Shown here in pieces: positions 34,074 to 58,945 of a stretch of 64,000 nt of DNA; the stretch's first letter is position 1, and every line of letters begins with the position of its first letter. The notes beneath the pieces were generated by a model that saw only the letters and a program-made list of their open reading frames with translations, was not told the DNA's origin and searched no databases. The DNA comes from Tritrichomonas musculus (taxonomy: Eukaryota > Parabasalia > Tritrichomonadida > Tritrichomonadidae). The stretch lies in the NCBI GenBank assembly GCA_039105265.1, contig JAPFFF010000014.1:2480001-2544000 (forward strand), read 5' to 3'. Position numbers and translations under genes: made by a program.

Positions 34074-34109
34074 GCTTGGATTCAATTAAAGATTTATTTT
34101 TGAGTAGGT

Positions 34110-36460: not shown

Positions 36461-37366
36461 TTAGTCTCGGTTCAGAACTTGTAAAAGAAGAGCCATACGA
36501 ACCCATAAGCCGTTGTGTGCTTGTTCGAAGTAGCAAGCACGTGGATCATCATCAACTTCTGTAGAGATTTCATTAACGCGTGGTAATGGATGAAGTAAAA
36601 TAAGGTTTTCACTGAACATGTTTAAGACGTTCTTGTCAACAATGAATTCTTCTTTGCCAAAATCGCCTTCAAATCGTTCTGATTGAATTCGTGTATGGTA
36701 CATAACATCCAAGTCTTTCGGTAAGTCTGAAAAGCTGTGGCAAACTTCGTATTCAACGTTCTTTTCTTTAAGGATTTCAACATACTTTTGTGGAAGTGCA
36801 AATGCTTCTTTGCTTAATCCATAGATTTTGATGTTATCATAAAAAGATAATAATTTGATAAGTGAGTGGATGGTTCGACCGTTAGCTAAGTCCCCAAGAA
36901 TTGCAACTTTTAAGTTGTCAAGGCGACCAATTTTTTCACGGATAGTATATAAGTCAAGTAATGCTTGTGTTGGATGTTCTCCTTTCCCTGCACCACCATT
37001 AAGAATTGGGATCTTGTTAACACTAGCGGCTTCAATAGCTGATGTGTCTGATTTATGACGCATAACCATGGCATCTGCATAACCTGCAATAACACGTACT
37101 GAATCTTGAATCGTTTCACCTTTGGTCGCAGAAGATGACGAACCAGCGTTCTCAGTCGTGATGATTTTGGCACCAAGTTTAAGTGCAGCAGCTTCAAATG
37201 ATAATCTTGTGCGTGTGCTTGGTTCATAAAACATAACTGCAACAACCTTATCGCTTAACTTGTTTGAGTAATTTTCTGGATGAGATTTGATCTTGTTGGT
37301 TAAGTCAAAGACTTCTTTCAAGCTTTCTCGATCGTATTGATCCGCGCTTAAGATGTGTTTCATCAT
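36461..37366 (-). CDS. pyrB: Aspartate carbamoyltransferase (unit 1, minus copy)
   Basis: This enzyme joins carbamoyl phosphate to aspartate, the first committed step of pyrimidine synthesis. It is a 301-aa bacterial-length catalytic chain with the carbamoyl-phosphate loop STRTR (50-54), the mobile-loop Lys K82 (ATKGET), HPTQ (131-134), HTRIQ with R226/Q228, and HPLPR (259-263). All key residues are present. Base composition and codon use are richer in G+C than the flanks, and the protein is bacterial in type, which suggests lateral transfer. No regulatory subunit gene is seen. It is head to head with an identical copy at 37937. Confidence 0.95.
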   Translation of the reverse strand: MMKHILSADQYDRESLKEVFDLTNKIKSHPENYSNKLSDKVVAVMFYEPSTRTRLSFEAAALKLGAKIITTENAGSSSSATKGETIQDSVRVIAGYADAMVMRHKSDTSAIEAASVNKIPILNGGAGKGEHPTQALLDLYTIREKIGRLDNLKVAILGDLANGRTIHSLIKLLSFYDNIKIYGLSKEAFALPQKYVEILKEKNVEYEVCHSFSDLPKDLDVMYHTRIQSERFEGDFGKEEFIVDKNVLNMFSENLILLHPLPRVNEISTEVDDDPRACYFEQAHNGLWVRMALLLQVLNRD

Positions 37367-37936
37367 CTGAAAAAAAAAAAAATGATATCAAATACATCAA
37401 TAAATAATTAATTCATTTATTTGTGAAATTCTCTCAATTTCGACCATAATTTTACATTTAATTTATCTTATTAAATACAAATTTAATTTTATTTTAAATT
37501 AGAAAAAGGAATTCTATATTATGTTTAAAAATATATGAATGAAATAATCATGATTATCTTTGATTTTGATCGATTTTTCATTATGGAGAATAAAAAAATT
37601 TTAAATTGAGAACACGTTGGTAAGAAATTTCAATACTTTTTTTCTGAACTAACTACGGATTTTTCTGAGTTAACTTCGTATTTTTCTGAACTAGCTACGT
37701 TTTCATTATTTCAATATAATTTATATATATATCAATTAATAAATATTTTTTGAATATATTATTAATATATTCTATATAGATACATATATATTAAAATATA
37801 TTAATACTAGATATTTAATATTATAAATAAATATATTCAAAAAATGTAAAATAATGAAATGGTCGAAATTGAGAGAATCTCAGAAATGAAAGAATTGATT
37901 ATTTATTGATGTATTTGATATCATTTTTTTTTTCAG
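37367..37936. promoter_or_regulatory. Bidirectional pyrB spacer, orientation A
   Basis: This is the spacer between the two pyrB starts. Each side has a poly-T/A run and a TCATTTT sequence (A at 37923 on the plus side, 14 nt before the ATG) that fits the trichomonad TCA-Y-W initiator. Three tandem 21-bp units with TTTTTCTGA lie at 37639-37701. In units 2 and 3 the same spacer is reversed. Confidence 0.7.
37639..37701. repeat. Three 21-bp tandem repeats in the pyrB spacer
   Basis: The units are TTTTTCTGA(A/G)(C/T)TA-type, at 37639, 37660 and 37681. They could be binding sites for a regulator. Confidence 0.75.
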
Positions 37937-38842
37937 ATGATGAAACACATCTTAAGCGCGGATCAATACGATCGAGAAAGCTTGAAAGAAGTCTTTGACT
38001 TAACCAACAAGATCAAATCTCATCCAGAAAATTACTCAAACAAGTTAAGCGATAAGGTTGTTGCAGTTATGTTTTATGAACCAAGCACACGCACAAGATT
38101 ATCATTTGAAGCTGCTGCACTTAAACTTGGTGCCAAAATCATCACGACTGAGAACGCTGGTTCGTCATCTTCTGCGACCAAAGGTGAAACGATTCAAGAT
38201 TCAGTACGTGTTATTGCAGGTTATGCAGATGCCATGGTTATGCGTCATAAATCAGACACATCAGCTATTGAAGCCGCTAGTGTTAACAAGATCCCAATTC
38301 TTAATGGTGGTGCAGGGAAAGGAGAACATCCAACACAAGCATTACTTGACTTATATACTATCCGTGAAAAAATTGGTCGCCTTGACAACTTAAAAGTTGC
38401 AATTCTTGGGGACTTAGCTAACGGTCGAACCATCCACTCACTTATCAAATTATTATCTTTTTATGATAACATCAAAATCTATGGATTAAGCAAAGAAGCA
38501 TTTGCACTTCCACAAAAGTATGTTGAAATCCTTAAAGAAAAGAACGTTGAATACGAAGTTTGCCACAGCTTTTCAGACTTACCGAAAGACTTGGATGTTA
38601 TGTACCATACACGAATTCAATCAGAACGATTTGAAGGCGATTTTGGCAAAGAAGAATTCATTGTTGACAAGAACGTCTTAAACATGTTCAGTGAAAACCT
38701 TATTTTACTTCATCCATTACCACGCGTTAATGAAATCTCTACAGAAGTTGATGATGATCCACGTGCTTGCTACTTCGAACAAGCACACAACGGCTTATGG
38801 GTTCGTATGGCTCTTCTTTTACAAGTTCTGAACCGAGACTAA
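37937..38842 (+). CDS. pyrB: Aspartate carbamoyltransferase (unit 1, plus copy)
   Basis: Its protein is identical to the minus copy, with all catalytic motifs intact. The start is placed at the first of two Met codons directly after TTTTTTTTTCAG; the TCATTTT initiator-like site lies 14 nt upstream. The downstream flank has ATATAACTAA repeats and then the MITE at 38972. Confidence 0.95.
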   Translation: MMKHILSADQYDRESLKEVFDLTNKIKSHPENYSNKLSDKVVAVMFYEPSTRTRLSFEAAALKLGAKIITTENAGSSSSATKGETIQDSVRVIAGYADAMVMRHKSDTSAIEAASVNKIPILNGGAGKGEHPTQALLDLYTIREKIGRLDNLKVAILGDLANGRTIHSLIKLLSFYDNIKIYGLSKEAFALPQKYVEILKEKNVEYEVCHSFSDLPKDLDVMYHTRIQSERFEGDFGKEEFIVDKNVLNMFSENLILLHPLPRVNEISTEVDDDPRACYFEQAHNGLWVRMALLLQVLNRD

Positions 38843-38971
38843 ATATAACTAAATATAACTAAATGCGGATCCAATTAATTAATCAATTAATTCATATTAA
38901 CTAACTTTTCTTACTTATAGATTTTAAATAAATGTTTCCTATTTCTCTTAAATGCATGTGTTATTTATATT

Positions 38972-39309
38972 TTAAGGGACCACTATCAAATTCTATGTTA
39001 AAAATTCTATGAGTTATCACAAAATTAATTGACTTAAAAAAATTATTTCATGAGTATTTTTGCTATATTTTGGTATATATAAATTATATAAATTACATAT
39101 CATTTATTTCTATTCTTCTTTTAAGCCTATTCCCTTTTTTCAATAAAAATTTAAAAGTTGAAAGGAGTAAAAATTTTACTAAATTTAATCGGAATGGTGA
39201 AATTTTAAAGTTTTAAACTTTTTCCGAGATAACAACTATTGAATTTTCTTTTCTATGAGTTTTCTCAATATTGAAATGTTTACAAAAAAATATGATAGTG
39301 GTCCCTTAA
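38972..39309. mobile_element. MITE with TA-type target duplication (unit 1)
   Basis: Perfect 17-bp inverted ends (TTAAGGGACCACTATCA at 38972-38988, its reverse complement at 39293-39309) include the TA at each side, as in Tc1/mariner-related MITEs. It has no coding capacity. The third pyrB array copy lacks it. Confidence 0.85.
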
Positions 39310-40122
39310 TAAAATTACAGATTATATTTACTTTGGCTCATTTTTCAAGATCATTTAATGAATTTCTTTTAAAAAATAAGTAAAACTGCATATAGTCCTG
39401 TTGGATTTAATGTTAATATTTCTTTCGGCTGGAAATTTAATCAAAGATTAATTAAATGTTTTGTATTTTTATTTCAATTGATTTGATATCAACTATTTAG
39501 GAAAAATATAGATTTCGTTTTGGATAAAATGCAAAATGGAATCTAAAAAGGATAAAAGCGGTGAAAACTTTTTAAATGGTTTACATTTCAAAAAATGAAT
39601 TATTTGCCTAGAAAGTAAAGGTCCATAATAAATCGAGGAAGAATATTCCAAAATATTTTTAGATAATATTGGCAAAAATCTCTTAATACAGTTGAATACA
39701 AGTTATTCATTCAATTCTTAATAGAGCAAGAAAATAAAAATATAGATATAATTTTAACAATTAAGCCTTATATCTTACATTGTCTAAGTTTGGGCTTTCA
39801 AGAAGTTTCCAAACAGATCTTGGAAATTCAAAAGCTTTCTAAAATTTGGCTGATTATTATGTCAATGGAAAAGGTGTGGAAAAGCTTTTCAGCATTGTAA
39901 AAAAGATGAAGATGAAGATGAAGTAAAATAGTTAATATATCTCTTCAATTGGTATTAAGAAATATATATTAATTTAAGACATGTAAATTAAATTATTGAA
40001 ATGAAAATTATTATTTTCAGGAGAATCTTTCGAAGTTCTTCTACAGTCATTAATAAAATTCTGAGAGGTGATAAAATTGTGAGTGGACGTTTAGTTTTTT
40101 TTGGTACGTTAAAATTTAAAAA
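39310..40122. other. Non-coding stretch between MITE and transposase remnant
   Basis: This is AT-rich DNA with no supported gene. A GAAGATGAA repeat lies near 39906-39924. Confidence 0.5.
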
Positions 40123-41545
40123 ATGGAAGGTATCTCAGGATTCCCTATGGCTCAAGCAATCCAAAATGAAATAATTTATAGAAGACTACGAGAGCTAGGT
40201 TTTGCTGATAGAGACATCCGTTCATTAGAGAGGAATGAGACTTGAAACGGCATAAAATACCGAAATCACCAAATATATTTTTTACGAACTCTATACGCCG
40301 AATTTACATTTAGACAGCCCACAATAAAAGAACTCATGAATGTCTTTAATATTTCTGAAACTCTGGTAAGAAGAGCCATTAAAGCAGGCTTCCAGATGCC
40401 AAATGATCCCGGAAGGCACCCTTTCCTTCCAATTGATGACGAAAAAAAACTAATAGCAATGATCATTGAAAGAGAAATTCGGGGTAACCCAATAGTACAC
40501 GCAGAGTTCCGTAAATTTGTCCAAGAAAATTATAACGTTGGTGCCTCTACTGGATGGCTGCAATATTTTGTTCAAAGATACTCAGATGAAATACAAAAGG
40601 CAAAGTCTTATCCTCAAGACGATTTATGAATGACAATCCCAAGAGAATTCTTGATTGCTCACTTTACCAATATGAAAGAAATAGTTGAAAATTGCTGTAG
40701 CGAACTTTGTTTCAATCTCGATGAGGTAGGTTCTAGTGACTGGGAAGAAAGGAAGATCAAAAAAGTTCTTGTCTCAAAAAGTTCAGACCCAAAAACGGTT
40801 AACCATGCAGTGTCAAGAAAATTCAAACACCAAACTCTAGTTGCTTTAGTATCATCTGCAGGTGATGCCTTAACCCCATTACTGATTGCCAGTTGCGATG
40901 TTGAAGAAGATCTCAATAAAAATGGATATCGTATCGGCGATGATGTCATTTTTCGTTACCGAAAACCACCTTTTATCAACAAAGAACTGTTTAATGAGTA
41001 CATTATAAGCGTGTTGATTCCATATGTATCATCATTACGTCAAAAAGAAGAGTATTCAAATGAACCTGCGGTTCTTTTATTAGACTCGTGCTCTGCTCAT
41101 GTCAATGATGAAATTCTCAGAATTTTGGGCGAAAATAGCATAAAAGTTGTTGCTTTTCCAGCACATATAACAAATATCTTCCAAGCTTTAGATCTAGTGC
41201 TGTTTGGTGTATTTAAAAAAAAAGCAGACGCAACAATCAACAGTTGACCACAGCAAACAAGCATTTGTATCATCAAAAATAATAAATTCTTATGAAGAAA
41301 CAATGACAGGCTCACGAATTAGAGCAAGCTTCAATAGAGCGGGTTTCACCATTGATACCTCAAAAAATCCTCACCGTCTCATTTTTGACGAGAATTTGCT
41401 GAAAGAAAATCCAGGTTTTAAAGAATTATGGGACGCAAATGTGCCTATGGAGAGGCTATCAGCTCGCCGACAAAACCATAGGTTTGGATGGATAAATCAA
41501 CAATATTTCCAGATTCCTGGAGTTCAAAATGTAAGTGATGATTAA
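40123..41545 (+). pseudogene. pogo/Tigger-like DDE_1 transposase pseudogene (unit 1)
   Basis: The frame opens at 40123 (MEGISGFPMAQAIQNEII) and is broken by TGA at 40243, by TGA after QDDL near 40627, and by a frameshift near the A-run at 41216-41224. An N-terminal helix-turn-helix-like part (FNISETLVRRAIKAGF) precedes the DDE_1 core. Catalytic Asp candidates are CFNLDEVG and VLLLDSCSAHV, with AHITNIFQALDLVLFG closing the core. It is dead as it stands and identical in unit 2. Confidence 0.85.
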
Positions 41546-41745
41546 ATAAAGCTTGCTTTAAAAAATAAAATAAAAATGCTTTTTTTCCATTTTTATCATT
41601 TTTTATAAATTATATTTTGAATTATAATAAAGGATTTATTTAAACTAAATTCAAAAAAAAAGACCTCTCAATTTTTTTAAATATATTGAATTTTTTGAAT
41701 ACATTACACAATTTTTTGAATTATATTGAAAATTATTATAAATTA

Positions 41746-44032
41746 ATGGGAAACGATATTTCTACAAGCCAAAACCAGATTTCAGATCAATCCCAATCTA
41801 ATGGGAAGGAGCATTCCCATCATACAGGCTGATCACGAAAGAATAATTTTGAAGATGGCATAGATCAGATTATATTTGAAGAACAAAGCAAAAATTCGGA
41901 TCAATTCCAATCTCAACCCAATAAGAAAAAGCATTCTCATCGTACAGGCCGATCACGAAAGAATAATTTTGAAGATGGCATAGATCAGTTTATATTTGAA
42001 GAACAAAACCAAATTTCAGAACAATCCCAATATCAACTCAATAAGAAAAAGCATTCCCGTCATACAGGCAGATTCTCAAAACATATTTTTGAAGATGATA
42101 TTGATCAAATATCTGAGAGCCAAAATTCTCCAACTTCAAACTCAATACAAAATCCGCCAAATTTAAACGCAGCACAAAATCAGCAAACATTAAACACAAT
42201 GCATAATTCACCAACATTAAGTGCATCACATAATTCACCAATATTAAGCACAATGCATAATTCACCAACATTAAGTGCATTGCATAATTCACCAACATTA
42301 AGTGCATCACATAATTCACCAATATTAAGCACAGCACAAAATCTGCAAACATTAAACATAATGCATAATTCACTTGCATTTAACACATTGCCAAATTTAA
42401 TACACTACTCTCCACCTTTCAGTTTTATGCATAACTCTCAGCCTTTAAGAACACAATCATTTCAAAATTCGCCTATTTCAATCACAACGCTAAATGCTTC
42501 ACCTTTAAACACAAGAACAGTGCATAATTTACCAACAATCAATTTAATGCAAAATCCATCTAACTCAAGAGTATCACATAATTTATTGTCATTTAATCAA
42601 TCACAGATTTCTCATCATATTAATCAAGAAAATAAATCATCCCAAAGAATCAAATCAAAAATTGATGAATCAAAGGTGTTCAAATATTACAACAAGCATG
42701 GTTTAAATCAAACTAAAGTGCACTTTCACATTGGATTTGATCGACTCCAAAAAATACTTAAAATCAATGGTAAATATCGTAATAAACGTAAAACTAATGT
42801 AGAAATTGATGATTTTATTGTTGAACTTGCTTCATCAGGGAGGCAAGCTTTTGCTATTTCTGTTGAAATTGAAAAACGATTTCATAAGCACATATCAAGA
42901 CAAACAGTTATCAGACGTTTAAAAGAAAATCATTTAAATACAGGAAGCTTTTCAAAGTTCCAGAATTATCTGAATCACAAATATTATTAAGATATAACTT
43001 TTCATCATTACTTTTTATAAATAACTTTGATTTTAATGAAGAAATGATTGTTTTTTCTGATGAAGCAAGATTTTCTTTTAGACCTGATCACAAAAAATGG
43101 TGGGTACAAGATGATGATATGTCGGTTAAAGCGACAACGCAAATTCGTAAATATCCATATAGTACTCTTATTTGGGCTGCAATCGGCCATAATTTTAAAT
43201 CTAAACTTATTTTTATTGACAAATGCGTTAACCAAGAACGTTATAAAGAGATCCTCAAACAATCAAAAATATTTCAAGATCTCGATCAAATGAGGAAACC
43301 ATTTAATTATTATTTCCAACAAGATGGGGCAACCTACCATCAAACTGATAACGTTTTGAATTTTATTTTTAAGAAAGCCAGAGTTCTCAATGGGTGGCCA
43401 TTAAACTCGCCTGATCTTTCGCCCATTGAGAACCTCTGGGCAATAATGAAGGAACGGTTAAACCGTTTAACTACTAACCAAAAAATAAAGATGAATTAAA
43501 AAAATTCATACAAAAAGTTTATGATGAAATCTCATTAGATATCATTAATAATCTTGTAAATACATTCGAATACCGATTAAAAATGTGTAAAGATTTTGGA
43601 GGCAAAACAATTGCTCATTTTATACGAAAAGGTTATCATTCCATTCCACAACAATATATAGTTCCTGAAGAACAATGTCCTCCTCTACTTACACCAGAAA
43701 TGTACCTCCAAATATATAAAGAAAAGCGGAAAACTCCGCATAGGTGGAAAGCAATTGCAAAAAGAATCGGTGAATCCCAAAAAATTGATAATATCATTGT
43801 AAAAAATAAAGCATTGGAAATTCAAAGAAAAATAAAAGATTTTAAGAAGCACCAATCAATTATTAAACAAATACCATTTGAGCTTTCTGATATTATTGAG
43901 TATTTAAATGAATCTGAAGATAAATCATTAAAAGAAAATGAAGAAGAAGAAGAGGAAGAAGAAGAAGAGGAGGAAGAGGAGGAAGAAGAAAACACTACTG
44001 ATGATGAAATAATGAATCCATATTATTTTTAA
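41746..44032 (+). pseudogene. Tc1/mariner-like DDE_3 transposase pseudogene (unit 1)
   Basis: The frame starts MGNDISTSQNQ. A TGA lies at 41830. Frameshifts lie near 42955 and 43485. The N part has three degenerate repeats of a GRSRKNNFEDGIDQ block and then many HNSPTLS repeats. A helix-turn-helix-like DNA-binding region (SRQTVIRRLKENH) follows. The DDE core reads FSDEARF, QQDGATYH and SPDLSPIENLWAIMKERL, so all three acidic residues are visible. The C tail is a long poly-Glu run. The long repeat-rich N extension is unusual for the family. Confidence 0.85.
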
Positions 44033-44107
44033 ATTCTTTTTTTTTTTTCTGAGTGTGTAATAATAAAAATTATTCAATTTTTGAGAATCTATTCATTTTT
44101 TGAATTG

Positions 44108-44205
44108 TCCAAAAACTAGACCTGTGAAAAACAAAATAAACTTATCAAAATAAAAAATAATTTTTTGAATTTCCCACAATTAAATTGAAAGGTCTAGTTT
44201 TTGGA
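44108..44205. repeat. 98-bp hairpin element (unit 1)
   Basis: Perfect 16-bp arms (TCCAAAAACTAGACCT and its reverse complement) enclose AT-rich DNA just downstream of the Tc1-like pseudogene. They could be a transposon end or a mini-MITE. Confidence 0.75.
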
Positions 44206-44487
44206 AGGTAGTTTATATTTATACATACTTTAAACATATATAATAATATTAAATATTGAGTGAGATATCTTCAAAAAAAATATTTTTTTTATACAAAAAA
44301 AAAAAAAAAAAAGTGCCTCTCACAATTTTATCACCGCTCAGAATTTTATTAATGACTGTAGTTTATCGTACCTTGTTGTTCCAAAATAAGGCGCAAACAA
44401 AAAGCATCAGGTTCTTTGTCAGCTCTTGTCAACATCTCGCCTCTGGTTGTTTCAAAATAAAACAAAACCAAAAAAATTCAAATTATT

Positions 44488-44700
44488 ATGCCTGCTATTG
44501 ATACAAGTATATGCGGTTCAAACTGCCAAGAACACAATTTTGCAAATGATTGGAGTCATAATAAAAAGGATGACAGCAAAATGAATTTCCAGAAATCAAT
44601 GAAATACACTCTATTGGAGCACGAATATTACAAGAACATACTTATTGATGAAAATGTTTCAGATTCACCAAGGTGCAGATGCCCATTTTATTTAAAGTAA
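44488..44700 (+). CDS. Small hypothetical open frame, 70 aa (unit 1)
   Basis: It starts MPAIDTSICGSNCQEHNF and has several cysteines (ICGSNC, RCRCPFYLK). No family is recognised. It could be a gene remnant, for example the edge of a transposase or host gene; an initiator-like site is not clear. Support is weak. Confidence 0.25.
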   Translation: MPAIDTSICGSNCQEHNFANDWSHNKKDDSKMNFQKSMKYTLLEHEYYKNILIDENVSDSPRCRCPFYLK

Positions 44701-44825
44701 GTCATAATAATATGCAAATTAATGTTTCGGTAGGCCTAAAATTCAATTATTCTACTAGTTCATTCTTAAATGAATACAATGTAACAAATTTAGGAACATA
44801 AAGCAGAGATTTCTTTTGGAAGATC

Positions 44826-44910
44826 GGATGCAGCTGAGATTTCGCTTGAAGGAGCCGATGCAGCTGAAATTTTGATTGGGGAATCTGATGCAGCTGAAGT
44901 AGTATAGTTT
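44826..44910 (+). repeat. Short GATGCAGCTGA tandem repeat (unit 1)
   Basis: Three units of about 37 bp begin GATGCAGCTGA. In one frame they give repeated DAAEI peptides, so they may be remnants of a repetitive coding sequence. Confidence 0.6.
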
Positions 44911-45000
44911 AGGCGGTGGCTCGTACCTCGCCCAAGCCTATACACTTCGCCACCAAGCTCAGGTACCCCTTCACGTGGGCCTCGCTACCCGGACAAAGAA
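44911..45000. other. GC-rich island of unknown nature (unit 1)
   Basis: This 90-bp segment is strikingly G+C rich (GGCGGTGGCTCGTACC ... TTCGCCACC) in otherwise AT-rich DNA, with inverted GGTGGC/GCCACC pairs. It could be a structured RNA or a piece of a dispersed repeat. No known RNA is recognised. Confidence 0.4.
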
Positions 45001-45631
45001 CACGTTATTTCTGAGTTATGAGAATGAGCGGGCTTTGAGTGAAATCTGTGAAAACTTAGATTTGTGGTTAAGTTGTGAGTTGTTCGATAATCGTTAATCC
45101 GCAAACAAAAAACTTATTTAGTTAAGTTTCCATCTTCCTGATCGAGGCCATTAACTTCCCCTAGTTAACGGACGGCTCCTTTCAATAATCACTTCATTTG
45201 GAGTAGATCTCTTTTATAAGTAATTCAGAAAAAGGCATCTCAGGGTTAGTTTTTGCACTTTTTTATGATTATCTTTTTCTTCCTTTTTATGAATATCTGA
45301 ACTTCTTGGTCTTCAGAAAAAAGACTTAGAACTCTCAGATGATTCGCAAATATTAACACTTTACATAAAAAATTCGAAAACAGATCAATTTGACAGAGGG
45401 TGCAGAACTTTTATTTATAATAACGGATGAGATAGTGTAAGAAGGGCTACTTGTCTAAACGACAATTCGCCCATCCTTACCCGTTTTAACCCCTTTCAGA
45501 CATCACACACCCAGTAAAACCAGTATCTTGTATATCTGAATCACCGTTAAACCTATTAACGTTTAAGTGCTAGAAGAGGTCAGAACACATTTGTCAACTT
45601 TTTCTGTCATATTATAATATCCATCAATTTT
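45001..45631. other. Non-coding region with imperfect hairpin
   Basis: No gene is seen. An imperfect hairpin is at about 45438-45479 (GGGCTACTTGTC against GACAATTCGCCC). There is a C-rich stretch near 45480-45520. Confidence 0.45.
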
Positions 45632-45904
45632 TTAAGTTTTTAATTTTGGAAGATTACTTACCCTTGATTTATAGAATGCTGCTTTTTGTGCTGGATACAT
45701 GTAAATTTCTTCAAGATTGTTAAATCCTTCAAAAGATCCTGGTGAAAAAGCGATGGTGCCAACTTCAAAGTATATTGTTGTTTTATCTTTACAATTTGCA
45801 ATGCTTTATGCATTAATGTTCAATGTTTCTGTATATGTTGTATCAGAACCTTCACAGTTAAGGTTTGAAGTTATTAAAAATATAAAATATGAAAACAAAA
45901 ACAT
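45632..45904 (-). pseudogene. BspA-like leucine-rich-repeat pseudogene (unit 2 boundary)
   Basis: On the minus strand the frame starts with a signal-peptide-like segment (MFLFSYFIFLITSNLNCEG). It then hits TAA at 45806-45808 and continues in frame with a BspA-like repeat (IAFSPGSFEGFNNLEEIYMY) to a stop at 45632. BspA-like proteins are the largest surface-protein family of trichomonads. This one is far shorter than usual and has a stop codon, so it is a remnant. It marks the junction between tandem units. Confidence 0.65.
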
Positions 45905-46488
45905 TTACAAATTTTATAACGTGCTTTCATTATTCTCATATCGTTTCATGAAATCAGTAGCAAAAGGTCTAAAAAATTGGCTATAAGTATTTTTTAGATT
46001 AAAATAATGATTAATATTTTTAAATATATCAGTATACATAAAATAAAATTATCGAGATAATTATGTTTTCGAAAACTATTCAATTTTCTTTTTAACGATT
46101 ATATCAAGGTGAAAACAGATTTTAAAATATGACCTCAAAAATATGAGTTATGGAATAGGTGAGATAAGGAGGTCAGTGTATTAGATTTTTAATTAATTTG
46201 ATTTTTTTTTTAACATAAATTATGATGGACTTAGGACAGTCAATTTTAATTCATAAGTGAAGGTCAGAAGTGATTAGAGTTATCGAATGTTATATGAACA
46301 ACACTGAAATTTCTGATTCAAATGAAATAATCAAATGAAATGAAATGGAATAAAATAAAAAGTTGTTAAAAGATTAAAACTGAATGAATTTGTGAAGAAA
46401 TAGGAAACATTTATTTAAAATCAATAAGTAAGAAAAGTTAGTTAATATGAATTAATTGGATCCGCAATTTAGTTCTATTTAGTTATAT

Positions 46489-47394
46489 TTAGTCTCGGTT
46501 CAGAACTTGTAAAAGAAGAGCCATACGAACCCATAAGCCGTTGTGTGCTTGTTCGAAGTAGCAAGCACGTGGATCATCATCAACTTCTGTAGAGATTTCA
46601 TTAACGCGTGGTAATGGATGAAGTAAAATAAGGTTTTCACTGAACATGTTTAAGACGTTCTTGTCAACAATGAATTCTTCTTTGCCAAAATCGCCTTCAA
46701 ATCGTTCTGATTGAATTCGTGTATGGTACATAACATCCAAGTCTTTCGGTAAGTCTGAAAAGCTGTGGCAAACTTCGTATTCAACGTTCTTTTCTTTAAG
46801 GATTTCAACATACTTTTGTGGAAGTGCAAATGCTTCTTTGCTTAATCCATAGATTTTGATGTTATCATAAAAAGATAATAATTTGATAAGTGAGTGGATG
46901 GTTCGACCGTTAGCTAAGTCCCCAAGAATTGCAACTTTTAAGTTGTCAAGGCGACCAATTTTTTCACGGATAGTATATAAGTCAAGTAATGCTTGTGTTG
47001 GATGTTCTCCTTTCCCTGCACCACCATTAAGAATTGGGATCTTGTTAACACTAGCGGCTTCAATAGCTGATGTGTCTGATTTATGACGCATAACCATGGC
47101 ATCTGCATAACCTGCAATAACACGTACTGAATCTTGAATCGTTTCACCTTTGGTCGCAGAAGATGACGAACCAGCGTTCTCAGTCGTGATGATTTTGGCA
47201 CCAAGTTTAAGTGCAGCAGCTTCAAATGATAATCTTGTGCGTGTGCTTGGTTCATAAAACATAACTGCAACAACCTTATCGCTTAACTTGTTTGAGTAAT
47301 TTTCTGGATGAGATTTGATCTTGTTGGTTAAGTCAAAGACTTCTTTCAAGCTTTCTCGATCGTATTGATCCGCGCTTAAGATGTGTTTCATCAT
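46489..47394 (-). CDS. pyrB: Aspartate carbamoyltransferase (unit 2, minus copy)
   Basis: It encodes the same 301-aa protein as the unit 1 copies. The A-run just upstream is shorter than in unit 1, matching the flank that lies on the other side there. Confidence 0.95.
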   Translation of the reverse strand: MMKHILSADQYDRESLKEVFDLTNKIKSHPENYSNKLSDKVVAVMFYEPSTRTRLSFEAAALKLGAKIITTENAGSSSSATKGETIQDSVRVIAGYADAMVMRHKSDTSAIEAASVNKIPILNGGAGKGEHPTQALLDLYTIREKIGRLDNLKVAILGDLANGRTIHSLIKLLSFYDNIKIYGLSKEAFALPQKYVEILKEKNVEYEVCHSFSDLPKDLDVMYHTRIQSERFEGDFGKEEFIVDKNVLNMFSENLILLHPLPRVNEISTEVDDDPRACYFEQAHNGLWVRMALLLQVLNRD

Positions 47395-47964
47395 CTGAAA
47401 AAAAAAATGATATCAAATACATCAATAAATAATCAATTCTTTCATTTCTGAGATTCTCTCAATTTCGACCATTTCATTATTTTACATTTTTTGAATATAT
47501 TTATTTATAATATTAAATATCTAGTATTAATATATTTTAATATATATGTATCTATATAGAATATATTAATAATATATTCAAAAAATATTTATTAATTGAT
47601 ATATATATAAATTATATTGAAATAATGAAAACGTAGCTAGTTCAGAAAAATACGAAGTTAACTCAGAAAAATCCGTAGTTAGTTCAGAAAAAAAGTATTG
47701 AAATTTCTTACCAACGTGTTCTCAATTTAAAATTTTTTTATTCTCCATAATGAAAAATCGATCAAAATCAAAGATAATCATGATTATTTCATTCATATAT
47801 TTTTAAACATAATATAGAATTCCTTTTTCTAATTTAAAATAAAATTAAATTTGTATTTAATAAGATAAATTAAATGTAAAATTATGGTCGAAATTGAGAG
47901 AATTTCACAAATAAATGAATTAATTATTTATTGATGTATTTGATATCATTTTTTTTTTTTTCAG
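47395..47964. promoter_or_regulatory. Bidirectional pyrB spacer, orientation B (unit 2)
   Basis: This is the reverse complement of the unit 1 spacer, including the small differences in the two promoter-proximal arms and the three 21-bp repeats (now about 47630-47692). TCATTTT initiator-like sites are kept on both sides. Confidence 0.75.
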
Positions 47965-48870
47965 ATGATGAAACACATCTTAAGCGCGGATCAATACGAT
48001 CGAGAAAGCTTGAAAGAAGTCTTTGACTTAACCAACAAGATCAAATCTCATCCAGAAAATTACTCAAACAAGTTAAGCGATAAGGTTGTTGCAGTTATGT
48101 TTTATGAACCAAGCACACGCACAAGATTATCATTTGAAGCTGCTGCACTTAAACTTGGTGCCAAAATCATCACGACTGAGAACGCTGGTTCGTCATCTTC
48201 TGCGACCAAAGGTGAAACGATTCAAGATTCAGTACGTGTTATTGCAGGTTATGCAGATGCCATGGTTATGCGTCATAAATCAGACACATCAGCTATTGAA
48301 GCCGCTAGTGTTAACAAGATCCCAATTCTTAATGGTGGTGCAGGGAAAGGAGAACATCCAACACAAGCATTACTTGACTTATATACTATCCGTGAAAAAA
48401 TTGGTCGCCTTGACAACTTAAAAGTTGCAATTCTTGGGGACTTAGCTAACGGTCGAACCATCCACTCACTTATCAAATTATTATCTTTTTATGATAACAT
48501 CAAAATCTATGGATTAAGCAAAGAAGCATTTGCACTTCCACAAAAGTATGTTGAAATCCTTAAAGAAAAGAACGTTGAATACGAAGTTTGCCACAGCTTT
48601 TCAGACTTACCGAAAGACTTGGATGTTATGTACCATACACGAATTCAATCAGAACGATTTGAAGGCGATTTTGGCAAAGAAGAATTCATTGTTGACAAGA
48701 ACGTCTTAAACATGTTCAGTGAAAACCTTATTTTACTTCATCCATTACCACGCGTTAATGAAATCTCTACAGAAGTTGATGATGATCCACGTGCTTGCTA
48801 CTTCGAACAAGCACACAACGGCTTATGGGTTCGTATGGCTCTTCTTTTACAAGTTCTGAACCGAGACTAA
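47965..48870 (+). CDS. pyrB: Aspartate carbamoyltransferase (unit 2, plus copy)
   Basis: Its protein is identical to the other copies. The upstream T-run is longer, as expected if the two promoter arms were exchanged by inversion. Confidence 0.95.
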   Translation: MMKHILSADQYDRESLKEVFDLTNKIKSHPENYSNKLSDKVVAVMFYEPSTRTRLSFEAAALKLGAKIITTENAGSSSSATKGETIQDSVRVIAGYADAMVMRHKSDTSAIEAASVNKIPILNGGAGKGEHPTQALLDLYTIREKIGRLDNLKVAILGDLANGRTIHSLIKLLSFYDNIKIYGLSKEAFALPQKYVEILKEKNVEYEVCHSFSDLPKDLDVMYHTRIQSERFEGDFGKEEFIVDKNVLNMFSENLILLHPLPRVNEISTEVDDDPRACYFEQAHNGLWVRMALLLQVLNRD

Positions 48871-48999
48871 ATATAACTAAATATAACTAAATGCGGATCC
48901 AATTAATTAATCAATTAATTCATATTAACTAACTTTTCTTACTTATAGATTTTAAATAAATGTTTCCTATTTCTCTTAAATGCATGTGTTATTTATATT

Positions 49000-49337
49000 T
49001 TAAGGGACCACTATCAAATTCTATGTTAAAAATTCTATGAGTTATCACAAAATTAATTGACTTAAAAAAATTATTTCATGAGTATTTTTGCTATATTTTG
49101 GTATATATAAATTATATAAATTACATATCATTTATTTCTATTCTTCTTTTAAGCCTATTCCCTTTTTTCAATAAAAATTTAAAAGTTGAAAGGAGTAAAA
49201 ATTTTACTAAATTTAATCGGAATGGTGAAATTTTAAAGTTTTAAACTTTTTCCGAGATAACAACTATTGAATTTTCTTTTCTATGAGTTTTCTCAATATT
49301 GAAATGTTTACAAAAAAATATGATAGTGGTCCCTTAA
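49000..49337. mobile_element. MITE (unit 2 copy)
   Basis: It is the same 338-bp TA-flanked MITE as at 38972, at the same place in the unit, so it was present before the tandem duplication. Confidence 0.85.
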
Positions 49338-50150
49338 TAAAATTACAGATTATATTTACTTTGGCTCATTTTTCAAGATCATTTAATGAATTTCTTTTAA
49401 AAAATAAGTAAAACTGCATATAGTCCTGTTGGATTTAATGTTAATATTTCTTTCGGCTGGAAATTTAATCAAAGATTAATTAAATGTTTTGTATTTTTAT
49501 TTCAATTGATTTGATATCAACTATTTAGGAAAAATATAGATTTCGTTTTGGATAAAATGCAAAATGGAATCTAAAAAGGATAAAAGCGGTGAAAACTTTT
49601 TAAATGGTTTACATTTCAAAAAATGAATTATTTGCCTAGAAAGTAAAGGTCCATAATAAATCGAGGAAGAATATTCCAAAATATTTTTAGATAATATTGG
49701 CAAAAATCTCTTAATACAGTTGAATACAAGTTATTCATTCAATTCTTAATAGAGCAAGAAAATAAAAATATAGATATAATTTTAACAATTAAGCCTTATA
49801 TCTTACATTGTCTAAGTTTGGGCTTTCAAGAAGTTTCCAAACAGATCTTGGAAATTCAAAAGCTTTCTAAAATTTGGCTGATTATTATGTCAATGGAAAA
49901 GGTGTGGAAAAGCTTTTCAGCATTGTAAAAAAGATGAAGATGAAGATGAAGTAAAATAGTTAATATATCTCTTCAATTGGTATTAAGAAATATATATTAA
50001 TTTAAGACATGTAAATTAAATTATTGAAATGAAAATTATTATTTTCAGGAGAATCTTTCGAAGTTCTTCTACAGTCATTAATAAAATTCTGAGAGGTGAT
50101 AAAATTGTGAGTGGACGTTTAGTTTTTTTTGGTACGTTAAAATTTAAAAA

Positions 50151-51573
50151 ATGGAAGGTATCTCAGGATTCCCTATGGCTCAAGCAATCCAAAATGAAAT
50201 AATTTATAGAAGACTACGAGAGCTAGGTTTTGCTGATAGAGACATCCGTTCATTAGAGAGGAATGAGACTTGAAACGGCATAAAATACCGAAATCACCAA
50301 ATATATTTTTTACGAACTCTATACGCCGAATTTACATTTAGACAGCCCACAATAAAAGAACTCATGAATGTCTTTAATATTTCTGAAACTCTGGTAAGAA
50401 GAGCCATTAAAGCAGGCTTCCAGATGCCAAATGATCCCGGAAGGCACCCTTTCCTTCCAATTGATGACGAAAAAAAACTAATAGCAATGATCATTGAAAG
50501 AGAAATTCGGGGTAACCCAATAGTACACGCAGAGTTCCGTAAATTTGTCCAAGAAAATTATAACGTTGGTGCCTCTACTGGATGGCTGCAATATTTTGTT
50601 CAAAGATACTCAGATGAAATACAAAAGGCAAAGTCTTATCCTCAAGACGATTTATGAATGACAATCCCAAGAGAATTCTTGATTGCTCACTTTACCAATA
50701 TGAAAGAAATAGTTGAAAATTGCTGTAGCGAACTTTGTTTCAATCTCGATGAGGTAGGTTCTAGTGACTGGGAAGAAAGGAAGATCAAAAAAGTTCTTGT
50801 CTCAAAAAGTTCAGACCCAAAAACGGTTAACCATGCAGTGTCAAGAAAATTCAAACACCAAACTCTAGTTGCTTTAGTATCATCTGCAGGTGATGCCTTA
50901 ACCCCATTACTGATTGCCAGTTGCGATGTTGAAGAAGATCTCAATAAAAATGGATATCGTATCGGCGATGATGTCATTTTTCGTTACCGAAAACCACCTT
51001 TTATCAACAAAGAACTGTTTAATGAGTACATTATAAGCGTGTTGATTCCATATGTATCATCATTACGTCAAAAAGAAGAGTATTCAAATGAACCTGCGGT
51101 TCTTTTATTAGACTCGTGCTCTGCTCATGTCAATGATGAAATTCTCAGAATTTTGGGCGAAAATAGCATAAAAGTTGTTGCTTTTCCAGCACATATAACA
51201 AATATCTTCCAAGCTTTAGATCTAGTGCTGTTTGGTGTATTTAAAAAAAAAGCAGACGCAACAATCAACAGTTGACCACAGCAAACAAGCATTTGTATCA
51301 TCAAAAATAATAAATTCTTATGAAGAAACAATGACAGGCTCACGAATTAGAGCAAGCTTCAATAGAGCGGGTTTCACCATTGATACCTCAAAAAATCCTC
51401 ACCGTCTCATTTTTGACGAGAATTTGCTGAAAGAAAATCCAGGTTTTAAAGAATTATGGGACGCAAATGTGCCTATGGAGAGGCTATCAGCTCGCCGACA
51501 AAACCATAGGTTTGGATGGATAAATCAACAATATTTCCAGATTCCTGGAGTTCAAAATGTAAGTGATGATTAA
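50151..51573 (+). pseudogene. pogo/Tigger-like transposase pseudogene (unit 2)
   Basis: It is identical in layout to 40123-41545, with the same two TGA codons and the same frameshift, so the damage came before the unit was copied. Confidence 0.85.
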
Positions 51574-51773
51574 ATAAAGCTTGCTTTAAAAAATAAAATA
51601 AAAATGCTTTTTTTCCATTTTTATCATTTTTTATAAATTATATTTTGAATTATAATAAAGGATTTATTTAAACTAAATTCAAAAAAAAAGACCTCTCAAT
51701 TTTTTTAAATATATTGAATTTTTTGAATACATTACACAATTTTTTGAATTATATTGAAAATTATTATAAATTA

Positions 51774-54060
51774 ATGGGAAACGATATTTCTACAAGCCAA
51801 AACCAGATTTCAGATCAATCCCAATCTAATGGGAAGGAGCATTCCCATCATACAGGCTGATCACGAAAGAATAATTTTGAAGATGGCATAGATCAGATTA
51901 TATTTGAAGAACAAAGCAAAAATTCGGATCAATTCCAATCTCAACCCAATAAGAAAAAGCATTCTCATCGTACAGGCCGATCACGAAAGAATAATTTTGA
52001 AGATGGCATAGATCAGTTTATATTTGAAGAACAAAACCAAATTTCAGAACAATCCCAATATCAACTCAATAAGAAAAAGCATTCCCGTCATACAGGCAGA
52101 TTCTCAAAACATATTTTTGAAGATGATATTGATCAAATATCTGAGAGCCAAAATTCTCCAACTTCAAACTCAATACAAAATCCGCCAAATTTAAACGCAG
52201 CACAAAATCAGCAAACATTAAACACAATGCATAATTCACCAACATTAAGTGCATCACATAATTCACCAATATTAAGCACAATGCATAATTCACCAACATT
52301 AAGTGCATTGCATAATTCACCAACATTAAGTGCATCACATAATTCACCAATATTAAGCACAGCACAAAATCTGCAAACATTAAACATAATGCATAATTCA
52401 CTTGCATTTAACACATTGCCAAATTTAATACACTACTCTCCACCTTTCAGTTTTATGCATAACTCTCAGCCTTTAAGAACACAATCATTTCAAAATTCGC
52501 CTATTTCAATCACAACGCTAAATGCTTCACCTTTAAACACAAGAACAGTGCATAATTTACCAACAATCAATTTAATGCAAAATCCATCTAACTCAAGAGT
52601 ATCACATAATTTATTGTCATTTAATCAATCACAGATTTCTCATCATATTAATCAAGAAAATAAATCATCCCAAAGAATCAAATCAAAAATTGATGAATCA
52701 AAGGTGTTCAAATATTACAACAAGCATGGTTTAAATCAAACTAAAGTGCACTTTCACATTGGATTTGATCGACTCCAAAAAATACTTAAAATCAATGGTA
52801 AATATCGTAATAAACGTAAAACTAATGTAGAAATTGATGATTTTATTGTTGAACTTGCTTCATCAGGGAGGCAAGCTTTTGCTATTTCTGTTGAAATTGA
52901 AAAACGATTTCATAAGCACATATCAAGACAAACAGTTATCAGACGTTTAAAAGAAAATCATTTAAATACAGGAAGCTTTTCAAAGTTCCAGAATTATCTG
53001 AATCACAAATATTATTAAGATATAACTTTTCATCATTACTTTTTATAAATAACTTTGATTTTAATGAAGAAATGATTGTTTTTTCTGATGAAGCAAGATT
53101 TTCTTTTAGACCTGATCACAAAAAATGGTGGGTACAAGATGATGATATGTCGGTTAAAGCGACAACGCAAATTCGTAAATATCCATATAGTACTCTTATT
53201 TGGGCTGCAATCGGCCATAATTTTAAATCTAAACTTATTTTTATTGACAAATGCGTTAACCAAGAACGTTATAAAGAGATCCTCAAACAATCAAAAATAT
53301 TTCAAGATCTCGATCAAATGAGGAAACCATTTAATTATTATTTCCAACAAGATGGGGCAACCTACCATCAAACTGATAACGTTTTGAATTTTATTTTTAA
53401 GAAAGCCAGAGTTCTCAATGGGTGGCCATTAAACTCGCCTGATCTTTCGCCCATTGAGAACCTCTGGGCAATAATGAAGGAACGGTTAAACCGTTTAACT
53501 ACTAACCAAAAAATAAAGATGAATTAAAAAAATTCATACAAAAAGTTTATGATGAAATCTCATTAGATATCATTAATAATCTTGTAAATACATTCGAATA
53601 CCGATTAAAAATGTGTAAAGATTTTGGAGGCAAAACAATTGCTCATTTTATACGAAAAGGTTATCATTCCATTCCACAACAATATATAGTTCCTGAAGAA
53701 CAATGTCCTCCTCTACTTACACCAGAAATGTACCTCCAAATATATAAAGAAAAGCGGAAAACTCCGCATAGGTGGAAAGCAATTGCAAAAAGAATCGGTG
53801 AATCCCAAAAAATTGATAATATCATTGTAAAAAATAAAGCATTGGAAATTCAAAGAAAAATAAAAGATTTTAAGAAGCACCAATCAATTATTAAACAAAT
53901 ACCATTTGAGCTTTCTGATATTATTGAGTATTTAAATGAATCTGAAGATAAATCATTAAAAGAAAATGAAGAAGAAGAAGAGGAAGAAGAAGAAGAGGAG
54001 GAAGAGGAGGAAGAAGAAAACACTACTGATGATGAAATAATGAATCCATATTATTTTTAA
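51774..54060 (+). pseudogene. Tc1/mariner-like transposase pseudogene (unit 2)
   Basis: It is a copy of 41746-44032 with the same nonsense codon and frameshifts, and the same FSDEARF, QQDGATYH and SPDLSPIENLW core motifs. Confidence 0.85.
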
Positions 54061-54135
54061 ATTCTTTTTTTTTTTTCTGAGTGTGTAATAATAAAAATTA
54101 TTCAATTTTTGAGAATCTATTCATTTTTTGAATTG

Positions 54136-54233
54136 TCCAAAAACTAGACCTGTGAAAAACAAAATAAACTTATCAAAATAAAAAATAATTTTTTGAATTT
54201 CCCACAATTAAATTGAAAGGTCTAGTTTTTGGA
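54136..54233. repeat. 98-bp hairpin element (unit 2)
   Basis: It is a copy of the hairpin at 44108-44205. Confidence 0.75.
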
Positions 54234-54515
54234 AGGTAGTTTATATTTATACATACTTTAAACATATATAATAATATTAAATATTGAGTGAGATATCTTC
54301 AAAAAAAATATTTTTTTTATACAAAAAAAAAAAAAAAAAAGTGCCTCTCACAATTTTATCACCGCTCAGAATTTTATTAATGACTGTAGTTTATCGTACC
54401 TTGTTGTTCCAAAATAAGGCGCAAACAAAAAGCATCAGGTTCTTTGTCAGCTCTTGTCAACATCTCGCCTCTGGTTGTTTCAAAATAAAACAAAACCAAA
54501 AAAATTCAAATTATT

Positions 54516-54728
54516 ATGCCTGCTATTGATACAAGTATATGCGGTTCAAACTGCCAAGAACACAATTTTGCAAATGATTGGAGTCATAATAAAAAGGATG
54601 ACAGCAAAATGAATTTCCAGAAATCAATGAAATACACTCTATTGGAGCACGAATATTACAAGAACATACTTATTGATGAAAATGTTTCAGATTCACCAAG
54701 GTGCAGATGCCCATTTTATTTAAAGTAA
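54516..54728 (+). CDS. Small hypothetical open frame, 70 aa (unit 2)
   Basis: It is a copy of 44488-44700, with the same weak support. Confidence 0.25.
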   Translation: MPAIDTSICGSNCQEHNFANDWSHNKKDDSKMNFQKSMKYTLLEHEYYKNILIDENVSDSPRCRCPFYLK

Positions 54729-54853
54729 GTCATAATAATATGCAAATTAATGTTTCGGTAGGCCTAAAATTCAATTATTCTACTAGTTCATTCTTAAATG
54801 AATACAATGTAACAAATTTAGGAACATAAAGCAGAGATTTCTTTTGGAAGATC

Positions 54854-55028
54854 GGATGCAGCTGAGATTTCGCTTGAAGGAGCCGATGCAGCTGAAATTT
54901 TGATTGGGGAATCTGATGCAGCTGAAGTAGTATAGTTTAGGCGGTGGCTCGTACCTCGCCCAAGCCTATACACTTCGCCACCAAGCTCAGGTACCCCTTC
55001 ACGTGGGCCTCGCTACCCGGACAAAGAA
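54854..55028. repeat. GATGCAGCTGA repeats and GC-rich island (unit 2)
   Basis: It is a copy of 44826-45000, unchanged. Confidence 0.5.
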
Positions 55029-55659
55029 CACGTTATTTCTGAGTTATGAGAATGAGCGGGCTTTGAGTGAAATCTGTGAAAACTTAGATTTGTGGTTAAG
55101 TTGTGAGTTGTTCGATAATCGTTAATCCGCAAACAAAAAACTTATTTAGTTAAGTTTCCATCTTCCTGATCGAGGCCATTAACTTCCCCTAGTTAACGGA
55201 CGGCTCCTTTCAATAATCACTTCATTTGGAGTAGATCTCTTTTATAAGTAATTCAGAAAAAGGCATCTCAGGGTTAGTTTTTGCACTTTTTTATGATTAT
55301 CTTTTTCTTCCTTTTTATGAATATCTGAACTTCTTGGTCTTCAGAAAAAAGACTTAGAACTCTCAGATGATTCGCAAATATTAACACTTTACATAAAAAA
55401 TTCGAAAACAGATCAATTTGACAGAGGGTGCAGAACTTTTATTTATAATAACGGATGAGATAGTGTAAGAAGGGCTACTTGTCTAAACGACAATTCGCCC
55501 ATCCTTACCCGTTTTAACCCCTTTCAGACATCACACACCCAGTAAAACCAGTATCTTGTATATCTGAATCACCGTTAAACCTATTAACGTTTAAGTGCTA
55601 GAAGAGGTCAGAACACATTTGTCAACTTTTTCTGTCATATTATAATATCCATCAATTTT
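55029..55659. other. Non-coding region (unit 2)
   Basis: It is a copy of 45001-45631. No gene is seen. Confidence 0.45.
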
Positions 55660-55932
55660 TTAAGTTTTTAATTTTGGAAGATTACTTACCCTTGATTTAT
55701 AGAATGCTGCTTTTTGTGCTGGATACATGTAAATTTCTTCAAGATTGTTAAATCCTTCAAAAGATCCTGGTGAAAAAGCGATGGTGCCAACTTCAAAGTA
55801 TATTGTTGTTTTATCTTTACAATTTGCAATGCTTTATGCATTAATGTTCAATGTTTCTGTATATGTTGTATCAGAACCTTCACAGTTAAGGTTTGAAGTT
55901 ATTAAAAATATAAAATATGAAAACAAAAACAT
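55660..55932 (-). pseudogene. BspA-like pseudogene (unit 3 boundary)
   Basis: It is the same as 45632-45904, including the internal stop (now near 55834-55836). Confidence 0.65.
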
Positions 55933-56516
55933 TTACAAATTTTATAACGTGCTTTCATTATTCTCATATCGTTTCATGAAATCAGTAGCAAAAGGTCTAA
56001 AAAATTGGCTATAAGTATTTTTTAGATTAAAATAATGATTAATATTTTTAAATATATCAGTATACATAAAATAAAATTATCGAGATAATTATGTTTTCGA
56101 AAACTATTCAATTTTCTTTTTAACGATTATATCAAGGTGAAAACAGATTTTAAAATATGACCTCAAAAATATGAGTTATGGAATAGGTGAGATAAGGAGG
56201 TCAGTGTATTAGATTTTTAATTAATTTGATTTTTTTTTTAACATAAATTATGATGGACTTAGGACAGTCAATTTTAATTCATAAGTGAAGGTCAGAAGTG
56301 ATTAGAGTTATCGAATGTTATATGAACAACACTGAAATTTCTGATTCAAATGAAATAATCAAATGAAATGAAATGGAATAAAATAAAAAGTTGTTAAAAG
56401 ATTAAAACTGAATGAATTTGTGAAGAAATAGGAAACATTTATTTAAAATCAATAAGTAAGAAAAGTTAGTTAATATGAATTAATTGGATCCGCAATTTAG
56501 TTCTATTTAGTTATAT

Positions 56517-57422
56517 TTAGTCTCGGTTCAGAACTTGTAAAAGAAGAGCCATACGAACCCATAAGCCGTTGTGTGCTTGTTCGAAGTAGCAAGCACGTGG
56601 ATCATCATCAACTTCTGTAGAGATTTCATTAACGCGTGGTAATGGATGAAGTAAAATAAGGTTTTCACTGAACATGTTTAAGACGTTCTTGTCAACAATG
56701 AATTCTTCTTTGCCAAAATCGCCTTCAAATCGTTCTGATTGAATTCGTGTATGGTACATAACATCCAAGTCTTTCGGTAAGTCTGAAAAGCTGTGGCAAA
56801 CTTCGTATTCAACGTTCTTTTCTTTAAGGATTTCAACATACTTTTGTGGAAGTGCAAATGCTTCTTTGCTTAATCCATAGATTTTGATGTTATCATAAAA
56901 AGATAATAATTTGATAAGTGAGTGGATGGTTCGACCGTTAGCTAAGTCCCCAAGAATTGCAACTTTTAAGTTGTCAAGGCGACCAATTTTTTCACGGATA
57001 GTATATAAGTCAAGTAATGCTTGTGTTGGATGTTCTCCTTTCCCTGCACCACCATTAAGAATTGGGATCTTGTTAACACTAGCGGCTTCAATAGCTGATG
57101 TGTCTGATTTATGACGCATAACCATGGCATCTGCATAACCTGCAATAACACGTACTGAATCTTGAATCGTTTCACCTTTGGTCGCAGAAGATGACGAACC
57201 AGCGTTCTCAGTCGTGATGATTTTGGCACCAAGTTTAAGTGCAGCAGCTTCAAATGATAATCTTGTGCGTGTGCTTGGTTCATAAAACATAACTGCAACA
57301 ACCTTATCGCTTAACTTGTTTGAGTAATTTTCTGGATGAGATTTGATCTTGTTGGTTAAGTCAAAGACTTCTTTCAAGCTTTCTCGATCGTATTGATCCG
57401 CGCTTAAGATGTGTTTCATCAT
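56517..57422 (-). CDS. pyrB: Aspartate carbamoyltransferase (unit 3, minus copy)
   Basis: Its protein is identical to the other copies, and the same flanks as in unit 2 are present. Confidence 0.95.
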   Translation of the reverse strand: MMKHILSADQYDRESLKEVFDLTNKIKSHPENYSNKLSDKVVAVMFYEPSTRTRLSFEAAALKLGAKIITTENAGSSSSATKGETIQDSVRVIAGYADAMVMRHKSDTSAIEAASVNKIPILNGGAGKGEHPTQALLDLYTIREKIGRLDNLKVAILGDLANGRTIHSLIKLLSFYDNIKIYGLSKEAFALPQKYVEILKEKNVEYEVCHSFSDLPKDLDVMYHTRIQSERFEGDFGKEEFIVDKNVLNMFSENLILLHPLPRVNEISTEVDDDPRACYFEQAHNGLWVRMALLLQVLNRD

Positions 57423-57992
57423 CTGAAAAAAAAAATGATATCAAATACATCAATAAATAATCAATTCTTTCATTTCTGAGATTCTCTCAATTTCGACCAT
57501 TTCATTATTTTACATTTTTTGAATATATTTATTTATAATATTAAATATCTAGTATTAATATATTTTAATATATATGTATCTATATAGAATATATTAATAA
57601 TATATTCAAAAAATATTTATTAATTGATATATATATAAATTATATTGAAATAATGAAAACGTAGCTAGTTCAGAAAAATACGAAGTTAACTCAGAAAAAT
57701 CCGTAGTTAGTTCAGAAAAAAAGTATTGAAATTTCTTACCAACGTGTTCTCAATTTAAAATTTTTTTATTCTCCATAATGAAAAATCGATCAAAATCAAA
57801 GATAATCATGATTATTTCATTCATATATTTTTAAACATAATATAGAATTCCTTTTTCTAATTTAAAATAAAATTAAATTTGTATTTAATAAGATAAATTA
57901 AATGTAAAATTATGGTCGAAATTGAGAGAATTTCACAAATAAATGAATTAATTATTTATTGATGTATTTGATATCATTTTTTTTTTTTTCAG
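57423..57992. promoter_or_regulatory. Bidirectional pyrB spacer, orientation B (unit 3)
   Basis: It has the same orientation and nearly the same sequence as the unit 2 spacer. The 21-bp repeats are at about 57658-57720. Confidence 0.75.
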
Positions 57993-58898: not shown

Positions 58899-58945
58899 AT
58901 ATAACTAAATATAACTAAATAGAACTAAATAGAACTAAATTGCGG

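Follow-up and report, generated by a model that had tools for sequence, protein, structure and literature searches.

Both orientations of a directional spacer between head-to-head pyrB genes in a tandem array of Tritrichomonas musculus

In fim- and Hin-type systems of site-specific inversion, a promoter-bearing segment occurs in both orientations. On the human Y chromosome, inversions are reported for palindrome P6 (and IR3), with 3 inversions versus 56 conversions for P6 in 83 phased chromosomes (PMC3723533), and in Caenorhabditis elegans the genes F44E5.4 and F44E5.5 are separated by a 446-nt intergenic region with 160-nt arms and a 126-nt spacer (PMC1803023). Here we describe a pyrB array in the gut-dwelling parabasalid Tritrichomonas musculus, found in a 64,000-nt stretch of contig C14 (positions 2480001–2544000; henceforth the window), in which a spacer between paired pyrB genes is present in both orientations. 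The genome searched comprises 193.4 Mb in 746 contigs (193.49 Mb and 756 contigs as published; PMC11978803). The sample is one assembly, and the comparisons are between paralogous units and not between individuals. The pattern seems to reflect commonplace rearrangement between repeats, not a genetic switch.

The window carries three head-to-head pairs of uninterrupted, bacterial-type pyrB genes of 906 nt each, at 36461–38842 (unit 1, U1), 46489–48870 (unit 2, U2) and 56517–58898 (unit 3, U3). Measured from ATG to ATG, every spacer is 570 nt long. Unit 1 is preceded by flank X (35665–36440), which matches flank X' of unit 2 at 97.8% over 776 nt (17 mismatches), and consists of copy 1L (36461–37366, minus strand; 301 aa), the spacer in its reference, plus orientation (37367–37936) and copy 1R (37937–38842, plus strand). 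The first inter-unit segment (38843–46488) contains flank Z, two regions of DDE transposase-type open reading frames (ORFs) and flank X'. Unit 2 follows with copy 2L (46489–47394, minus), its spacer (47395–47964, minus, inverted relative to unit 1) and copy 2R (47965–48870, plus). The second inter-unit segment (48871–56516) shows 0/7,646 differences from the first, and the X' flanks of units 2 and 3 are identical. Unit 3 is made up of copy 3L (56517–57422, minus), its spacer (57423–57992, minus, likewise inverted relative to unit 1) and copy 3R (57993–58898, plus), and is bounded on the right by flank Y (58899–59065). The array contains a tandem repeat with a period of 10,028 bp, in that 37924–48392 recurs exactly at 47952–58420 (10,469 nt). 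Units 2 and 3 lie within this one repeat and hence do not count as two independent observations of their shared spacer orientation.

An earlier note on this DNA, made from the letters alone, had described the unit 1 spacer as the reverse complement of the spacers in units 2 and 3. The relationship is exact, with 0/570 mismatches to the reverse complement of either. Compared directly, the unit 1 spacer differs from the other two at 356/570 positions, and those of units 2 and 3 differ from each other at 0/570. The spacer is also mismatched to its own reverse complement at 356/570 positions and is therefore truly directional, which rules out a near-palindromic sequence whose orientation would be meaningless. 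The exact inverted match between units 1 and 2 reaches well into the genes (36458–38855 versus 46476–48873, 2,398 nt), and that between units 1 and 3 covers 1,917 nt (36939–38855 versus 56504–58420). Such matches are far beyond chance. The inverted pyrB arms, put at 1.1 kb in the earlier note, measure 1,092–1,151 nt at 96.4–97.9% identity by BLAST, and 922 nt in a row are identical between the arms of unit 1. Small differences between the promoter-proximal arms were likewise recovered (75 nt at 93.3%). Farther than ∼75–90 nt from either ATG, the spacer's two sides are largely unrelated. In each unit, then, a spacer that is not itself a palindrome is enclosed by long inverted arms of near-identical sequence.

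To place the array among its relatives, we collected pyrB copies across the genome. Matches to the PF02729 profile number at least 18: nine on C14, two each on C28 and C40, and one each on C35, C12, C2, C18 and C416. Sixteen full-length pyrB copies entered the gene comparison. Left out were the C18 match, which has no match to the pyrB DNA query and is probably an ornithine carbamoyltransferase, the C416 copy, cut off at the contig end, and a partial piece in L011 (888–1244). Five head-to-head pairs were found, one of them on C28 and four on C14, namely U1, U2, U3 and a further, diverged pair (A). Copies without a partner are present on C14 (copy S, likewise diverged), C35, C40 (two), C12 and C2. 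Copy S (C14:2456895–2457800; L009 2896–3801) retains the spacer (∼89%) until 81–84 nt before the place of the missing alpha gene's start codon, and seems to be a pair that lost one gene. We used it for polarity despite this shortened upstream side. In the gene tree, rooted at midpoint for drawing only, the 11 copies on C14 and C28, among which are all five head-to-head pairs found, are split (100/99) from the five that stand singly on C12, C2, C35 and C40. Differences within pairs are few (per 906 sites: U1, 0; U2, 0; U3, 3; A, 2; C28, 3), compared to 109–114/906 between C28 and C14 copies, so that the two arms of a pair resemble each other more closely than they do copies at paralogous loci.

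The two ends of the spacer provide each gene with one of two upstream regions, alpha (1L, 2R, 3R and AL) or beta (1R, 2L, 3L, AR and S), which differ in T-run length, at several substitutions and in most of the deeper sequence. In the unit 1 spacer, as in pair A, the alpha end is on the left and the beta end on the right. This allows orientation to be read against the flanks. In U1, alpha is linked with X and beta with Z. In pair A, alpha stands beside a flank that resembles X (84.6% over 201 nt) and beta beside Z (98.6% over 2,050 nt, with additional matching pieces), and in copy S beta is linked with Y (97.0% over 167 nt of 3' flank, then pieces at 91% and 78%). The linkage is the reverse in U2 (beta with X', alpha with Z) and U3 (beta with X', alpha with Y). 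The spacer therefore occurs in both orientations relative to homologous flanks, with U1 and A set against U2 and U3, and with S serving as the reference for flank Y. Because A, U1 and S agree in their flank–orientation linkage, we take the state in U2 and U3 to be derived, i.e. flipped. A 330-nt insert with terminal inverted repeats is present in the Z flank of U1 and U2 and absent from that of A.

A 19-nt element, TTTTTCTGARYTARCTWCG, occurs three times with 21-nt spacing in the unit 1 spacer (37639–37699, plus strand). Allowing up to 3 mismatches, we found it upstream of 12/12 pyrB copies checked, among them paralogues whose coding sequences share just ∼87% identity; the other four of the 16 copies repeat the upstream regions of unit 1's two genes. 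These occurrences make TTTTTCTGARYTARCTWCG a candidate regulatory element. The single copies on C35, C40, C12 and C2 have it one to three times, at about −271 to −333 and in the alpha direction, whereas the beta copies on C14 have it at −238 to −298 in the opposite direction. Since those single copies show the element in the alpha direction, the alpha region would seem to be ancestral and the beta region an inverted duplicate of it.

What process could have produced this array? We consider it probable, if by no means certain, that palindromic duplication of pyrB, crossover between the arms with inversion of the spacer, gene conversion and unequal exchange jointly give the best explanation. Each unit would be a palindromic duplication of a laterally acquired pyrB, with ∼1.1-kb arms around a ∼0.5-kb directional spacer, and gene conversion would keep the arms nearly identical. 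In the lineage of unit 3, homologous crossover between the arms of one DNA molecule would, at least once, have inverted the intervening segment. The ancestors of unit 1 and unit 3 would then have undergone unequal exchange, which generated unit 2, and with it the three-unit array, as a hybrid with the left flank, left arm and spacer of unit 3 and the right gene body and right flank of unit 1. Unit 2 can be explained in this way because it shows 0 differences from unit 1 in the right gene and Z flank and 0 differences from unit 3 in the left gene, spacer and X'. Because a single tandem repeat takes in both unit 2 and unit 3, one inversion event is enough for all units, and independent flips in the two are unneeded. 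Inversion would make two genes with an identical product trade their alpha and beta upstream regions, and would be expected to be functionally neutral. The proposal in the earlier note that recombination between the inverted arms flips the spacer is thus well supported, the change in orientation being a true one, polarised by A and S. Copy 3R bears on the mechanism as well. It carries three synonymous differences (gene positions 429, 474 and 792), has the gene sequence of AL (0/906 differences) and shares with AL the alpha upstream region, 429C and 474A. On the basis of one or two single nucleotide polymorphisms (SNPs), 3R joins this AL-like gene to a 3' flank like those of S and AR. The junction would lie between gene position ∼429 and the stop codon region, as an arm crossover would leave it, although few sites define it.

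Several observations weigh against this explanation. Only 429C links 3R to AL alone, as 474A is also present in S. A single origin of the pair before the C14/C28 split is assumed; if the pair did arise once before that split, arm-to-arm conversion would appear to be recurrent. Moreover, the spacers of U1 and U3 differ at 0/570 positions while X and X' differ at 17/776, a combination with a chance of 3e-6 if differences were uniform, although the X mismatches are in fact clumped. This identity in the face of flank divergence implies that inter-unit conversion also happened, and such conversion alone could have installed the inverted spacer. A serious rival, somewhat unlikely in our judgement, is accordingly copying in inverted register, by ectopic gene conversion or by template switching, in which unit 3 copied the unit 1 spacer backwards (or the reverse). 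The palindromic arms make backwards copying possible, and it would invert and homogenise the spacer in one step, without intramolecular crossover. In its favour are the contrast between spacer and X/X' just given and the behaviour of yeast, in which template switches between short inverted repeats have been reported both to flip the spacer and to make the arms uniform (PMC8604942). Arguing the other way, 3R pairs an AL-identical gene (429C) with an alpha upstream region, as a reciprocal flip would, again on one or two SNPs. Inverted arms are also a known cause of misassembly, so one unit might have been placed backwards, or the array mis-resolved. The 10,028-bp period exceeds the mean PacBio read of 8,938 bp, and four contigs of the published assembly were split as chimeric; Nanopore reads >10 kb (mean 16,875) were used to correct and scaffold it (PMC11978803). 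Only reads >10 kb therefore support unit 2 and the number of units, as neither can be anchored by reads of average size. Units 1 and 3, however, are ∼2.4 kb each and have unlike neighbouring sequence (flank X and flank Y, respectively), and can thus be spanned by ordinary HiFi reads. Nor would a simple assembly flip be expected to yield the recombinant 3R arm, and the published Methods describe no whole-genome amplification step, although the term is among the keywords (PMC11978803). We therefore regard an assembly error as quite unlikely. Two programs disagree on ploidy, one giving haploid and the other a highly homozygous diploid state (PMC11978803), so that sister chromosomes might differ as well.

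The earlier note had further raised the possibility of a switch. In that case a regulated spacer flip would change which promoter drives which copy, and hence expression. The alpha and beta upstream regions do differ, and flipping does, literally, swap them between the copies. But both genes of each window pair encode the same protein, so their summed output should stay unchanged after the swap. All six window genes encode one identical predicted 301-aa product, and orientation would not decide whether, or which, protein is made. In either orientation there is one alpha-driven and one beta-driven gene for that protein, and only the joined 3' flank changes. In addition, no site-specific recombinase was seen among 19 ORFs scanned (24.6–44.0 kb, 63.6–64.0 kb and elsewhere in the left half). 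A Pfam scan of the 6/6 inter-unit ORFs of ≥100 aa and the 1/1 right of unit 3, with shorter ORFs and the rest of the genome outside its scope, gave no tyrosine or serine recombinase; it returned DDE_1, DDE_3 and a sub-threshold Tc3-type helix-turn-helix only. As one inversion event explains all units, repeated flipping is also unneeded. We consider a switch highly improbable and reject it on the identity of the two products. A broader idea, which we rate as unlikely, is that arm-to-arm exchange keeps spacer orientation in constant flux, with every palindromic pyrB pair present in the population as two interconverting isomers. The same recombination would homogenise and amplify the gene for the committed step of an acquired pyrimidine pathway, and palindromic pairing would serve gene dosage and repair in a genome that may be asexual.

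The products of the window genes are, by profile comparison, aspartate carbamoyltransferases. They score 313.2 bits with TIGR00670 (cut-off 236.95) and 283 bits with NF002032 (cut-off 263), and fall below the cut-offs of the ornithine models among those listed. The nearest solved chains carry the names PyrB or aspartate carbamoyltransferase. The translation contains FYEPSTRTRLSFE and HPLPRVNEI, which carry the carbamoyl-phosphate motifs STRTR and HPLPR. Among the 120 matches listed in a protein search, the first seven, including T. musculus protein M9Y10_006205, are 87–95% identical. The remaining 113 are 72–81% identical, and the three named entries among them are all metagenome-assembled genomes of Clostridia (74–75%). 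These next-best matches suggest that pyrB was acquired laterally from bacteria. Between 1R and C28R, 90 nucleotide differences fall in synonymous codons versus 20 otherwise, and the mostly synonymous character of these differences between paralogues speaks for selection on pyrB function.

The single copy on C12 has pyrimidine genes for neighbours. In L057 (C12:3042600–3052599), pyrB (2003–2908, plus strand) is accompanied by a pyrK–pyrD fusion (3317–5104, minus; 595 aa; PyrD over cut-off, PyrK by its Pfam iron-sulfur domain only), a pyrF–pyrE fusion (5555–6889, minus; 444 aa; both activities over cut-offs) and pyrC (7413–8762, plus; 449 aa; over cut-off). This cluster brings together, within 7 kb, bacterial-type genes for the later five of the six reactions that make up de novo pyrimidine synthesis. 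The small chain of carbamoyl-phosphate synthase was not found in the T. musculus genome, the 14/14 control genomes being positive. One carbamate kinase is over cut-off (C6:274017–274943), so the arginine dihydrolase pathway, which T. foetus is reported to have (cited in PMC6022934), might supply the carbamoyl phosphate. Both T. vaginalis and T. foetus are stated to lack de novo pyrimidine synthesis (PMC3591441), the pathway to which the amplified pyrB belongs. The main text of the T. musculus genome paper never uses the word pyrimidine (PMC11978803), and the cluster may exceed the inverted spacer in general interest.

Other elements share the window with the array. A Maverick/Polinton-type element of 22.8 kb (11861–34663) has terminal inverted repeats that match at 99% (11861–12157 with 34367–34663, and 12255–12366 with 34079–34190), and codes for a type-B DNA polymerase, an A32-type ATPase, a KilA-N protein and an rve-like integrase (below cut-off). 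Repeats with a 27-bp period at 42040–42451 and 52068–52479 lie beside Tc1/mariner-like transposase pieces, and overlap the start of the ORF at 42199–42990.

How does the pyrB array compare with described systems? It shares with the fim/Hin type a promoter-bearing segment in both orientations; unlike that type, it has no recombinase among the ORFs scanned, and the same gene stands on both sides, leaving no on/off state. The literature searched, in which subscription journals were mostly outside coverage, gave no paper on inverted pyrB pairs in trichomonads. The closest parallels are found elsewhere. In human Y P6, as in the pyrB units, near-identical inverted arms are kept alike by conversion and occasionally invert by crossover, but the P6 arms are ∼100 kb long and were typed in a population, compared to ∼1.1-kb arms in paralogous units of one assembly (PMC3723533). 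F44E5.4 and F44E5.5 of C. elegans are likewise divergent genes (100% identity) around a short spacer, with arms kept alike within the species. The text covered does not describe their spacer in both orientations, and the pyrB pair is, in addition, tandemly amplified (PMC1803023). Template switching in yeast combines arm homogenisation with spacer inversion, as seen in the pyrB units, although its inverted repeats have arms of ∼10–16 bp and spacers of a few bp (PMC8604942). What the array adds is a clean, polarised example of both outcomes in a parabasalid, and its spacer orientation, which can be scored by polymerase chain reaction, offers a marker for how frequent such events are there. It also cautions against inferring a switch wherever a spacer between identical genes is found inverted. 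With these features, the inverted pyrB array joins the known inverted-repeat rearrangements of human Y palindromes, C. elegans and yeast.

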